In this document: positions 1 to 4,649 of the stretch, piece by piece
How positions within the stretch are numbered: the first letter of the stretch is position 1
How the letters are laid out: each line of letters begins with the position of its first letter
Source: Halopelagius inordinatus
Lineage (GTDB): Archaea > Halobacteriota > Halobacteria > Halobacteriales > Haloferacaceae
Direction: 5' to 3'
DNA: 64,000 nucleotides
Assembly (NCBI RefSeq): GCF_900113245.1
Contig: NZ_FOOQ01000003.1
Coordinates: 62,001 to 126,000 of the forward strand
Notes under the pieces: model-generated
What the model saw: the letters and a program-made list of their open reading frames with translations, nothing else
What the model was told of the DNA's origin: nothing
Database searches by the model: none
Position numbers and translations under genes: made by a program

Positions 1-945
1 TTCGTGGTCTACAGCAACGATTACATGGCGGTCGAACCCGGCTGGAACCACATCGACGTGACTCCGGGATTCGAGCCGTTCTACCTGATCTACCCGATGG
101 AGCTGAAGATTCGGCAGGCGAAGGTCGAACGACAGCAGGCGCTCATTCACGCGTCCGGCGTCTCTCTCGACGGCCAGACGACGCTGTTTCCGGCGTGGCG
201 GGGCGGCGGCAAGACGAACACGCTCCTTTCGCTACTGCGGGAGGGCGCCGGGTTCCTGTCGGACGACCGCCTCTGGGTCGGCGCGGACGGGTCCGCGCTC
301 GGCTATCCGCTCGGCGTGAACCTCGGGCCGTACAACATCGGGTCGTTCCCCGAAATCGAAGTCGAACACGACACGACGGAAGACCGCATCCGCCACGAGG
401 CCCACGAGTTCATCGACAAACAGGTCGAGAAAGGCGCTTCGCTGCCCGAGACGGCCATCTCCTTCCTGAATGACACCCTTCTCGGCAGCAGCAACCGAGA
501 TTTCACCGACGTGACGTCGGTGTACCCCGGTGCGGACTTCGTCGAAGAATCCACCGTCGACAACGTCGTGTTCCTCCAAGCGGCGCCGGACGCGGACAAC
601 ATCTCGGTCGAACAGATAACGACCGAGGAGGCGATGTCCGGCGTCACCGCCATCTGTAACTTCGAGTGGGACGGGCGACTCCGAGAGTACTTCCACGCGT
701 ACGACGCTCTGGTCGAAGGCGGAGACATGGTCGAGACGCTGGACCAGGTCGTACAGAAGGAACGCTCTGTCTTCCGGGAGTTGTTCGATGACGTGCGAGT
801 CTACCGCGCGCGCGTCCCGCGAAAAGCCGACTGGGGCGAGGCGGGTCTCGACGCCGCCATGGTGGACATGGTGTCTTCGTTCGGTGACCGAGACGACACA
901 AACGACGAACTAACCCGGCGACAGGCTTCTGCGTCCTCCGACTAA
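1..945 (+). CDS. HPr kinase-like P-loop protein (5' end outside window)
   Basis: The reading frame is open at the left edge, so the true start lies upstream. About residues 63-71 hold a Walker A-like loop (AWRGGGKTN) preceded by HASGVSLDG, the arrangement of the HPr kinase/phosphorylase C-terminal fold, and an SDD motif follows near residues 86-88. Related stand-alone HprK-like proteins occur in polysaccharide and RiPP gene clusters; there is no sign of a phosphotransferase-system HPr protein here. The C-terminal half matches nothing I recognise. The substrate is unknown. It is separated by 244 bp from the next gene and probably belongs to an upstream operon. Confidence 0.6.
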   Translation, partial: FVVYSNDYMAVEPGWNHIDVTPGFEPFYLIYPMELKIRQAKVERQQALIHASGVSLDGQTTLFPAWRGGGKTNTLLSLLREGAGFLSDDRLWVGADGSALGYPLGVNLGPYNIGSFPEIEVEHDTTEDRIRHEAHEFIDKQVEKGASLPETAISFLNDTLLGSSNRDFTDVTSVYPGADFVEESTVDNVVFLQAAPDADNISVEQITTEEAMSGVTAICNFEWDGRLREYFHAYDALVEGGDMVETLDQVVQKERSVFRELFDDVRVYRARVPRKADWGEAGLDAAMVDMVSSFGDRDDTNDELTRRQASASSD

Positions 946-1137: not shown

Positions 1138-1147
1138 GATATATAAC
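1138..1147 (+). promoter_or_regulatory. Putative TATA box for the cohesin-dockerin unit
   Basis: GATATATAAC lies in a locally AT-rich patch about 43 nt before the ATG at 1190. With a usual archaeal spacing of about 25 nt, transcription would start near 1170 and leave a short leader. It is the only good TATA candidate between 946 and 1189, a stretch in which I see no gene. Confidence 0.45.
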
Positions 1148-1189
1148 TATCCACGCTCCGCGAAGACCATTCTCTCAGGACTAATTTCG

Positions 1190-1357
1190 ATGTACAACTT
1201 ACAGGAGATCCGGAGCAGACAGCGACAGGAACGGACACAGAGCGGTTCTATGTCGTCTCAACAGGCGTGTGAGACGACGGAAGATTCCCCGACCGACGAG
1301 CGCTCTCTCGCGACCGACCGACGGTCCGAACAGGTCTACGAGGACGTGAAACGATGA
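1190..1357 (+). CDS. Small 55-residue protein coupled to phosphoesterase gene
   Basis: An ATG at 1190 opens a 55-codon frame ending at TGA 1355-1357, which overlaps the ATG (1354) of the next gene as ATGA, the usual sign of translational coupling. The product is hydrophilic (start MYNLQEIRSRQRQER, then a Ser/Thr/Glu-rich middle and a charged end EQVYEDVKR) with no signal peptide or membrane segment. A TATA-like element lies a plausible distance upstream. I recognise no family. It could be a real small protein or only a coupling leader for the phosphoesterase. Confidence 0.45.
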   Translation: MYNLQEIRSRQRQERTQSGSMSSQQACETTEDSPTDERSLATDRRSEQVYEDVKR

Positions 1358-3219
1358 GTAGAGATACTGATATATCCGGGGACCGACTGGCCCCGACGAG
1401 GCGGAGCGTTCTCGGCGCACTGGGTGCGGGCGTCGGCCTGACGACGTTCGGCGCGACCACTGGTGCCGCCGCGGATTCAGATTCGGACTACTGGACCGTC
1501 GTCGCCCTTCCGGACACACAGGAGTACGCCGAAGCGAAACTGAGCGGGAAGCCCGAGGTGGCGCAGTACGCGCACGACCAGACAAAGTGGATAGTCGAGA
1601 ACCGCGATTCCGAGAATATCGTCTTCGTGACCCACGAGGGTGACGTAATCGACGGCTATCAGAAGCCCGAGGAGAACGCCGACAAAATCGACGCGCAGTG
1701 GGAGTTCATGGACGACGTGATGTCCAGGCTCGACGGCAAGGTACCCTACTCGACGGTCACGGGGAACCACGACTGGCGGACGTGGTGGGACCGAAGTTCC
1801 TCCGTCGCAGGCTACAAAGACTACTTCGGCCCGAAGCGGTACGACCAGTACGACTGGTTCGGCGGTGCGGGGCCGACGAACGGCGACGAGAACCGCGACA
1901 ACCTCAACACCTACCAACTGTTCTCCGCCGGCGGATACGACTTCCTCCACCTCGCGTTAGAGTGGGAGGTTCCGGGGAGCGTCGACGACCCGTCGACGCC
2001 TCTGGGATGGGCACAGAAAGTCCTCGACGAGCATCCGGACCGAGCGACGATACTCACCACGCACTCGTATCTCCGAGACGACCCGACTCGGCGGGCGGAG
2101 AAAATCCAAGAGGCCGATGGCGACGGCAACCACGCAGAAACGATCTGGAACGATCTGGTTTCGCAGAACCCGCAGGTGTTCATGGTGCTGAGCGGTCACT
2201 GGCACGACACCAAAGAGGGCGAAGCCCACCAGGTTTCGACGAACGAGGCCGAACTCCCGGTCTACGAGATGCTGGCGAACTACCAGTTCCGGACCCAGGG
2301 GGGGTACGGCCTGCTCCGGCGCATCGAGTTCCATCCGGGCGGCGGCGACCCGGACCGCATACAGGTCCGAACCTACTCGCCCGGTACGGGGGACGTCGAG
2401 GACGACGAGAACAGCGAGTTTAGCTTCGACCTCGATTTCGACGAACGCTTCGAGGTGTCGTCGTCGCCGTCGTCCCCGGACACGCCGCAGGTCGAGTTCC
2501 AGCAGGGGTCGGACGGCTACGACGGAACGGTCGATACCACCCTCCGAGAGTCCGACCCAGACACGAGTTACGGGACCGAATCGACGGCGGCGGTCGATAC
2601 CGACGACCCGAACGGTTCGGGGGACGCCGTGCAAGCGCTTCTCCGGTTCGACGGACTCGTCGGGACCGAAGACGGGCGATTACCGCCGGGAGCGAACGTC
2701 GAAAAAGCCACCCTCACCCTCGAAACTGCGGACGGAGGCGACGGGGCGGCGGTCCACCGAATGCTCGCGGGGTGGACCGAAGACGACACGTGGGAGTCGA
2801 CTGACGGCGGCGTGCGAGCGGACGGGTCCCAAGCGACGTCCGACGCCGCGGCCCAGACCGGGTCGGTCAGCCCGGGCCAGACGGACGTGGATGTCACAGC
2901 GAGCGTACAGGCGTGGGCGAACGGCAAGGCGAACAACGGGTGGGCGCTTCTCCCACTCGGCGACGACGGCTGGGACATCCGAACCGCGGAGAGCGACTCC
3001 CCGCCGACGCTGACCGTCCAGTACACCGCACCCGAGACGGTTACGGGCGACTCCGACGGCGACGGCGACGTCGACAGCGACGACGTGGACGCAGTCCAGC
3101 GGTCGATAGCCGGCGAGGATGTCGATATCGACGAGGACGCCGCCGATGTCGACGGCGACGGCGATGTCGACGTCGGTGACGCCGTCTCGATTCGGAATCT
3201 GAGCGGGGACGGCGCATGA
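1354..3219 (+). CDS. Tat-exported metallophosphoesterase with dockerin domain
   Basis: A 621-residue secreted phosphoesterase. Residues 14-40 form a Tat signal (TRRSVLGAL, cleavage near Ala40). Calcineurin-like motifs follow: PDTQ near 53-56, GD at 96-97, GNHD at 137-140, TTH at 235-237 and GHWH at 281-284. Residues about 379-545 resemble a DNRLRE-type beta domain, common in exported proteins. The last 57 residues (565-621) form a dockerin type I domain with two calcium loops (DSDGDGDVDSDD and DVDGDGDVDVGD). The 3' end overlaps the next gene by ATGA at 3216-3219, and that gene encodes a cohesin, so the partner is probably its neighbour. The substrate (phosphodiester, phosphomonoester or nucleotide) cannot be read from sequence. 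Confidence 0.85.
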   Translation: MSRDTDISGDRLAPTRRSVLGALGAGVGLTTFGATTGAAADSDSDYWTVVALPDTQEYAEAKLSGKPEVAQYAHDQTKWIVENRDSENIVFVTHEGDVIDGYQKPEENADKIDAQWEFMDDVMSRLDGKVPYSTVTGNHDWRTWWDRSSSVAGYKDYFGPKRYDQYDWFGGAGPTNGDENRDNLNTYQLFSAGGYDFLHLALEWEVPGSVDDPSTPLGWAQKVLDEHPDRATILTTHSYLRDDPTRRAEKIQEADGDGNHAETIWNDLVSQNPQVFMVLSGHWHDTKEGEAHQVSTNEAELPVYEMLANYQFRTQGGYGLLRRIEFHPGGGDPDRIQVRTYSPGTGDVEDDENSEFSFDLDFDERFEVSSSPSSPDTPQVEFQQGSDGYDGTVDTTLRESDPDTSYGTESTAAVDTDDPNGSGDAVQALLRFDGLVGTEDGRLPPGANVEKATLTLETADGGDGAAVHRMLAGWTEDDTWESTDGGVRADGSQATSDAAAQTGSVSPGQTDVDVTASVQAWANGKANNGWALLPLGDDGWDIRTAESDSPPTLTVQYTAPETVTGDSDGDGDVDSDDVDAVQRSIAGEDVDIDEDAADVDGDGDVDVGDAVSIRNLSGDGA

Positions 3220-4649
3220 GGAACGCGCGCGTCGTCCTGGCGTGTGCTCTCGTCGTCCTAGCCGTGGGTCTCCCGGCCGCGGCCGGTTCAGCGCAGACGG
3301 GAACCGCGACGGGGATACATCTCGGCGAGGACGTCGCGGCCGACTCGGACGGGACGATAACCGCGGACCCCGGTGAAACGGTCACGGTGACCGTCTGGGC
3401 GAACGCCACCGGCGTGAGCGGCTATCAGACGGCGGTCACCTACGATTCGAGCGTCGTCGACGTCCAATCGGTCTCGGGTTCGGAGGACTTCGACGACCCC
3501 GTCGTGAACGATGAGGACGGACGGGTCGCGTTCAACCAGATTCGGGCGTCCGACACGACTGACCCGGTTCTGGCAGAGATAACGTTCTCCGTGACCGGCG
3601 ATGCGGGCGACGCCACCGAAATCTCGTTCGTCGGGGACGACACGACGTTCGCCGACGGAAACGGTGAGACGTTCTCGCCGGGGTCGTACGAGAGCGTGGA
3701 ACTGACCGTCGAAGGTTCGACGGCGACGTCCACTCCGACGGAGACGGAAACGCCGACTGACACCGAAACGGCAACCGCGACGTCTACACCGACGGAGACG
3801 GACGCGCCGACCGAGACGGAAACGGCGACGGAGACGGAAGCGTCGACCGAAACCGCGACTGAAGCGCCGGACGGGACTGAAGACTCCACATCCACGCCGG
3901 ATGGCATGGCGGAGCAGACATCCACACCGGATAGTACGAACGAGACGACGTCCACGCCGGACGATACGGACGAATCGACGTCCACGCCGGACAACGAGGC
4001 GACGTCTACTCCGACCGAGACTGCGGCACCGGCTAACACTGGTGGCGGCGGAGGCGGCGGAGGCGGTGGAGGCGGCGGTGGAAGCAGTAGTTACGACGAC
4101 GACGATGACGACGACGACGGAGACAGCGGTGCATCTGACCCCGCCGAACCGTCGTTCTCCATCGCGGAGGCGAGTCTCAACACGTCGTCACCGGAACCCG
4201 GTAGCCCGGTGACCGTGTCGGCTCTCGTCGAAAACACGGGTGACGCCTCCGGCGAGTTCGACCTGCAGGTCTACGTCGACGAAAACGCGACCGACGCGAA
4301 TCAGACCGTCGAGGTCGATGCTGGCCAAGAACGCCGAGTGAATCTCTCGCTTCGGTTCGACTCGCCCGGGACGTATTCGGTCGCGGTTGCCGACACGTCC
4401 GTCGGTAACGTGACCGTCCAACAAGAGGAGACGGCCACCCCGTCGTCCACGGCGACGGAGACGCCGCAGACGACGTCGAAGCCGTCCGATGCGGAGGCAC
4501 CTGCGGACACGGATAGCCCCGCCTCGACTGCGGCCGACGGCACGTCGAGCGGAGAAACCGTAGAGTCGATGCCCGGATTCGGGTTCGCTCTCGCCGCCGT
4601 CGCTATCGCTACCCTCCTTGGATGGGTCGGGCGCAGAGACAACGACTGA
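3216..4649 (+). CDS. Surface-anchored cohesin-domain protein with PGF-CTERM tail
   Basis: A 477-residue cell-surface protein. It has a Sec signal peptide (1-26), a cohesin-like beta-sandwich (about 33-167, with the typical Val-rich strand pattern around VSGYQTAVTYDSSVVDV), and a Thr/Pro/Glu linker (168-275) with several TSTPD repeats. A run of 14 Gly (276-289), a run of 8 Asp (294-301), a CARDB-like adhesion domain (about 313-402) and a second Thr-rich linker follow. It ends with PGF at 453-455, a hydrophobic helix and a basic tail, an archaeosortase sorting signal for lipid anchoring. It is coupled by ATGA to the dockerin-bearing phosphoesterase, so it probably docks that enzyme on the envelope. 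The linker is expected to be heavily glycosylated. Confidence 0.85.
   Translation: MRNARVVLACALVVLAVGLPAAAGSAQTGTATGIHLGEDVAADSDGTITADPGETVTVTVWANATGVSGYQTAVTYDSSVVDVQSVSGSEDFDDPVVNDEDGRVAFNQIRASDTTDPVLAEITFSVTGDAGDATEISFVGDDTTFADGNGETFSPGSYESVELTVEGSTATSTPTETETPTDTETATATSTPTETDAPTETETATETEASTETATEAPDGTEDSTSTPDGMAEQTSTPDSTNETTSTPDDTDESTSTPDNEATSTPTETAAPANTGGGGGGGGGGGGGGSSSYDDDDDDDDGDSGASDPAEPSFSIAEASLNTSSPEPGSPVTVSALVENTGDASGEFDLQVYVDENATDANQTVEVDAGQERRVNLSLRFDSPGTYSVAVADTSVGNVTVQQEETATPSSTATETPQTTSKPSDAEAPADTDSPASTAADGTSSGETVESMPGFGFALAAVAIATLLGWVGRRDND

Follow-up and report, generated by a model that had tools for sequence, protein, structure and literature searches.

Specific binding between cohesin and dockerin modules has been reported for Archaeoglobus fulgidus, in work that is cited in PMC9012536 and used in PMC9705933, and it has been pointed out that presence in a genome does not by itself make clear what these modules do in archaea (PMC9012536). 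Here we describe a locus in a 64,000-nucleotide stretch of Halopelagius inordinatus DNA (contig NZ_FOOQ01000003.1, positions 62,001 to 126,000; hereafter the window), in which a gene for a metallophosphoesterase with a C-terminal dockerin is followed by an overlapping gene for a cohesin protein and preceded by a gene for an HprK-like kinase. Since the pair recurs in two haloarchaeal families, at 19 loci in the window's own and at 7 in the second (26 in all), the arrangement lies far beyond chance. Our preferred reading, to which we assign a probability of about 0.6, is that of a dedicated one-enzyme docking pair within a conserved three-gene haloarchaeal module that includes the kinase. The features of the three genes are as follows.

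1..945, + strand: 3' portion of the HprK-like kinase gene, which in full (L004:11692-12945, 417 amino acids) begins upstream of the window
1354..3219, + strand: enzyme gene, encoding a 621-amino-acid metallophosphoesterase - CBM96/DNRLRE - dockerin protein of the twin-arginine translocation (Tat) type
1354..1473, + strand: predicted Tat signal (TRRSVLG...) without a lipobox cysteine; its RR is invariant in a 19-row alignment
1492..2451, + strand: calcineurin-like metallophosphoesterase domain; PF00149 matches 19/19 family members
2530..3021, + strand: CBM96/DNRLRE domain (PF24517, 1.5e-8; NF033679, 1.1e-17; alignment A1)
3046..3195, + strand: type I dockerin (Dockerin_1) with two calcium loops (residues 566-577 and 598-609) and conserved ligand positions
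3216..4649, + strand: cohesin protein gene (477 amino acids, predicted membrane-anchored), whose start codon overlaps the enzyme stop codon (ATGA)
3354..3662, + strand: cohesin domain (PF00963, 1.3e-10); its AlphaFold2 model matches solved cohesins
3708..4145, + strand: low-complexity spacer rich in T/P/E/D and G, read from the sequence
4152..4391, + strand: CARDB (Ig-like) domain (PF07705, 4.5e-7)
4569..4646, + strand: C-terminal PGF-type sorting tail (MPGFG - hydrophobic - RRDND), read from the sequence; homologues carry a PGF-like motif

Pairing of the dockerin enzyme with a cohesin protein

Two sets of genomes were searched, 170 of the window's family in the genome survey and 391 of the class in a wider search with the kinase; as these genomes are related to each other, Fisher p-values for co-occurrence are descriptive only because of shared ancestry. 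In the family survey, cohesin was detected in 45 genomes and dockerin in 72, and many sites show a dockerin ending 150-200 bases ahead of a same-strand cohesin. At 19 loci of 16 genomes, the protein that carries the dockerin is homologous to the window enzyme (50-65% identity). The two genes overlap by exactly four bases in 16 of these 19 pairs, the other three lying within six bases, and a four-base overlap is likewise present in all seven pairs of the second family; in the window, the ATGA overlap of the two open reading frames (ORFs) occupies positions 3216-3219, as confirmed by an ORF check. The overlap suggests translational coupling of the enzyme and cohesin genes. The equimolar synthesis that the original prediction drew from it does not follow, since the overlap is silent on stoichiometry.

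A cohesin gene lies directly downstream of every dockerin-bearing enzyme of the family (26/26) and beside none of nine homologues lacking a dockerin (0/9, in fetched neighbourhoods of about 9-17 kb), one of which is encoded in the window genome itself. This association, the strongest evidence for docking, strongly suggests that dockerin and cohesin serve each other. Moreover, a Tat-like motif is present in 26/26 of the dockerin enzymes and a lipobox or hydrophobic C-terminus in 0/26; with an enzyme that has no anchor of its own and a neighbour that is anchored, the partner presumably supplies the anchor. Collectively, docking of the enzyme by the cohesin protein may be regarded as well supported by comparative sequence evidence. 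When the distances of dockerin, catalytic domain and cohesin were compared by mirror-tree, every one of the three combinations came out positive, so that co-evolution of dockerin and cohesin was not singled out, and a whole-collection scan with the cohesin protein, whose query patterns lay partly in low-complexity stretches, returned no relative.

The domains of the enzyme agree with what had been read from the sequence originally, namely a Tat-exported metallophosphoesterase ending in a two-loop dockerin. In Pfam, the enzyme matched Metallophos (1.5e-7) and Dockerin_1 (1.4e-4) in addition to CBM96, and the phosphoesterase residues D54, H94, D97, GNHD137-140, H237 and H282 are invariant in the 19-row alignment. 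Both 12-residue calcium loops of the window dockerin are complete, with Asp or Asn at ligand positions 1, 3, 5, 9 and 12; across the homologues, nine of ten ligand residues are the same in 19/19, and the tenth is either Asp or Asn (alignment A1). The CBM96/DNRLRE domain is missing in about half of the enzyme homologues. In five copies (L069, L071, L090, L078 and L083; alignment A1), the second His of the phosphoesterase GHxH motif is replaced by Y, S or T, which hints at altered metal binding or activity. The homologue in the window genome (G000:C8:76214-77116; L142) is a second Tat-type phosphoesterase of the family, 51% identical, which has no dockerin, no CBM96 and no neighbouring cohesin.

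The product of the overlapping gene likewise proved to be as originally described, a PGF-anchored protein with an N-terminal cohesin. A Sec-type signal at the N-terminus is followed by the cohesin, the spacer, CARDB and a PGF-hydrophobic-basic tail. The cohesin scored 42 bits in the PF00963 search that had been suggested, above the cut-off of 24.1, and for the AlphaFold2 model of the domain (predicted local distance difference test, pLDDT, 77) the 49 top-ranking PDB matches were all entries that contain a cohesin, with 6kgf at E 1.4e-7 and a template modelling (TM) score of 0.66, and TM scores up to 0.70. The PGF motif, hydrophobic stretch and basic tail are all present at the C-terminus of the window protein: MPGFGFALAAVAIATLLGWVGRRDND. 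Among the 24 cohesin proteins with intact ends, from which those of L069 and L090 are left out as cut by frame breaks in repetitive sequence, 23 passed the hydrophobic-tail threshold and the remaining one narrowly missed it; by pattern count, a PGF-like motif is present in 20. TIGR04126 matches 5/19 homologues, the window protein not being among them; the window protein matches TIGR04216 at residues 314-465. The window genome encodes the archaeosortase ArtA (TIGR04125, E 1.2e-104), and together with the PGF tail this suggests that the cohesin protein is lipid-anchored.

Other combinations of the two modules were seen in haloarchaea. In genus g9 (L075, L076, L079-L082 and L098-L100), a second type of pair consists of a gene for a Sec-type protein of about 400 amino acids with a C-terminal dockerin, followed, with an overlap of 4 or a gap of 3 bases, by a gene for a cohesin protein with a PGF-like tail; as the dockerin protein is a different one, these pairs are excluded from the 26 loci. 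Open frames of about 650-1470 amino acids with cohesin and dockerin matches in one and the same frame, followed by a second cohesin gene, a scaffoldin-like arrangement, occur in G118, G123, G125, G127, G130, G146, G150, G158 and G160 (for example, L018, L022, L176 and L177). Genome G119 has eleven dockerin matches and no cohesin above threshold, and one of its contigs (L175; G119:C103:1-20000) carries a cluster of seven secreted-looking proteins, each with C-terminal dockerin-like repeats (DVQALF...FDFNGDG).

A linked HprK-like kinase gene

The kinase gene adjoins 22 of the 26 pairs, 15/19 in the window's family and 7/7 in the second. The 15 loci of the window's family show four arrangements: upstream in the same direction, downstream convergent, upstream divergent and downstream in the same direction. 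When the 170 genomes were searched with a kinase profile, the genomes with a strong match (15) or a fragment (one) coincided exactly with the 16 carrying the pair; two distant homologues were detected besides. The same profile, applied to the 391 class-wide genomes, picked out seven from a single genus of the second family, and in all seven the enzyme gene and the overlapping cohesin gene stand directly beside the kinase gene, as kinase linkage predicts; the pair had not been used in finding them. These gene neighbourhoods make a strong case for linkage of the kinase to the pair. At locus L166, the kinase gene adjoins a gene for an enzyme that has two CBM96 domains but lacks a dockerin, and a cohesin is likewise missing, which shows that the kinase-enzyme link is separable from docking. 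The kinase beside the pair at L074:2349-3351 (G126) is a fragment, either decaying or mis-assembled.

The kinase is a 'hypothetical protein' in public annotation; on a Halobaculum halobium plasmid the three genes are annotated as 'hypothetical protein', 'DNRLRE domain-containing protein' and 'cohesin domain-containing protein'. No Pfam match was obtained for the kinase protein, no significant PDB match was found, and its sequence has no evident export signal. TIGR04355 (HprK_rel_B) matches weakly in 14/14 aligned homologues, with 6.1e-8 as the best value, and the alignment contains the invariant motif H153 ... G173-K174-T175 ... D191-D192, whose spacing is that of the lasso-peptide HprK-like kinases, represented by H148, G168-K169-S170 and D186-D187 in BsfK (PMC10368454). 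The protein is accordingly described here as HprK-like, with a probable kinase activity and a putative substrate. A lasso-peptide role was rejected because peptide-maturation genes are not recurrent neighbours. Distant kinase homologues adjoin flippases and sugar-processing genes, and one homologue of the enzyme (47% identity) is fused in a single protein to glycoside hydrolase family 16, GH16 (L149:3253-6117; G079). Both observations, together with the CBM96/DNRLRE domain of the enzyme, favour a glycan, and our guess is that the substrate may be a surface glycan, a peptide being less likely.

Two minor elements lie between the kinase and enzyme genes.

1138..1148, + strand: TATA-like element agatatataac, recognised by eye; may act as promoter for the pair
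1190..1357, + strand: 55-amino-acid ORF with an ATGA overlap at the start of the enzyme gene; probably a leader ORF or spurious

The short ORF is not conserved and has no homologue in the other loci, for which reason it was rejected as a peptide precursor for the kinase. ORF starts were set by rule. The original prediction is confirmed as an observation, including its ORF positions and the ATGA overlap, and supported in part as an interpretation. The range that it had given, 1190-4649, does contain the pair, and its start at 1190 stems from the 55-amino-acid ORF, which went unmentioned; what it missed is the kinase gene, which accompanies the pair more consistently than any other further partner.

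Rival readings and a proposed function

Several observations count against the preferred reading. In G164, the kinase gene (G164:C3:545552-546664) lies 28 kb from the pair (515010-517174) on the same contig (L141), three second copies of the pair in genus g10 have no kinase nearby, and G267 has a strong kinase match and no such enzyme, so that a kinase can exist without the enzyme. The match of the kinase to TIGR04355 reaches 27 bits against a curated 200, far below the cut-off, AlphaFold2 applied to three kinase sequences gave a pLDDT of 32 and no usable fold, and the surroundings of the window itself show no glycan context. The PGF motif is absent from six cohesin proteins, two of which are end-cut. 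Finally, the Dockerin_1 (PF00404) profile, proposed at the outset as a check, gave an answer on either side of its 22.9-bit cut-off for the window enzyme, 25.9 bits in the genome search and 22.5 bits in hmmscan. The dockerin call is nevertheless safe, because homologues match Dockerin_1 (16/19 at E<=1e-3) and the calcium-loop ligands are conserved. The kinase-bearing stretch of G164 also carries a type I phosphodiesterase gene.

The kinase might accompany a simple docking pair for reasons of another kind, for example because both ride on one mobile island; the patchy distribution of the module (16/170 genomes), its position on a 464-kb plasmid in one species and the four loci at which kinase and pair are not adjacent would fit such an origin. 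We consider it rather unlikely, since the linkage holds across four gene arrangements and two families and since L166 has adjacent kinase and enzyme genes with neither dockerin nor cohesin. It is more improbable still that the dockerin serves to bind calcium or a substrate and does not interact with the adjacent cohesin. The dockerin of haloarchaeal glycoside hydrolases is assigned a substrate-binding role in PMC10963439, dockerins without a detected cohesin are present in many genomes of the family, and the window dockerin has a threshold-level Pfam score; yet the 26/26 versus 0/9 association was obtained within one enzyme family, the calcium loops of the window dockerin are intact, and archaeal cohesin-dockerin pairs are reported to bind (PMC9012536, PMC9705933).

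Whether the cohesin is a general scaffold for several enzymes was a question raised by the original prediction, which proposed a genome-wide search for other dockerin proteins. The window genome (3.53 Mb, 99.9% complete) holds a single dockerin and a single cohesin above cut-off, adjacent to each other, and a genome-wide profile search found no second dockerin in it even at E<=10. This contradicts a general scaffold there and indicates that the anchor serves one enzyme and not many clients. Dockerins do outnumber cohesins in some genomes with the pair, for example G112 with four dockerins and one cohesin, but genomes with two such dockerin enzymes have two cohesin genes, one behind each, and a general scaffold seems to us highly improbable.

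For the dedicated docking pair, established knowledge of the export and sorting routes and of calcium-dependent docking leads to the following proposal. The metallophosphoesterase would fold in the cytoplasm and leave through Tat as a soluble protein without its own anchor, and the cohesin protein would leave through Sec and be held at the membrane by its PGF-type tail, probably after processing by the archaeosortase ArtA; its long spacer may reach through the S-layer. The calcium-loaded dockerin would bind the cohesin outside the cell and so keep the enzyme on the cell surface; in enzymes that have a CBM96/DNRLRE domain, this domain would direct them to a carbohydrate. Inside the cell, the HPr-kinase-like protein may phosphorylate the precursor of what is probably a surface glycan, and the kinase would thereby make the phosphate on which the tethered enzyme acts, by hydrolysing, after export, either this phosphate or a phosphodiester derived from it. 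The three genes might then form a new phosphate-cycling surface system, in which an HprK-like kinase adds phosphate inside, a cohesin-tethered phosphoesterase removes it at the surface, and cellulosome-type docking serves as a detachable anchor; we advance this only tentatively, as somewhat less than an even chance.

Comparison with known systems

The locus would represent a minimal case, one enzyme and one anchor, in which an anchorless Tat-exported protein is held by a Sec-exported, anchored partner. Its recurrence in two families makes the system testable in haloarchaea, the linked kinase, itself of an uncharacterised family, offers a clue to what the system is for, and a pair working near salt saturation would be useful for surface display. 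A literature search of incomplete coverage found no paper joining dockerin, cohesin and metallophosphoesterase, and none combining 'cohesin domain' with haloarchaea. A dedicated phosphoesterase anchor and its link to a kinase thus appear to be undescribed. Docking as such is known, and the original prediction cannot claim novelty for the principle, as archaeal cohesin-dockerin binding is already documented for A. fulgidus (PMC9012536, PMC9705933).

The kinase shares with the lasso-peptide HprK-like kinases (BsfK) and the NCBIfam HprK-related kinases A and B the His - Walker A - Asp-Asp motif and its spacing; it differs from them in lying far below the curated cut-offs and in having no recurrent peptide-maturation neighbour. 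Like the A. fulgidus pairs, the window pair is archaeal and not for cellulose, whereas it is haloarchaeal, Tat-exported and phosphoesterase-bearing and has a PGF-type anchor and a kinase partner, a combination absent from the papers found. The dockerin and cohesin proteins of anaerobic methanotrophic archaea (ANME) similarly represent archaeal use outside cellulose degradation (PMC9012536), but they include multi-cohesin scaffoldin-like proteins, and their dockerins are carried by binding proteins of ATP-binding cassette (ABC) transporters. With the bacterial cellulosome, the window system has in common a type I dockerin on a secreted enzyme, a cohesin on an anchored protein and the cohesin fold. 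A multi-cohesin scaffoldin with several dockerin-bearing glycoside hydrolases, which defines the cellulosome, is not present in the window genome; in its place, the window system brings together one cohesin and one client, a phosphoesterase instead of glycoside hydrolases.

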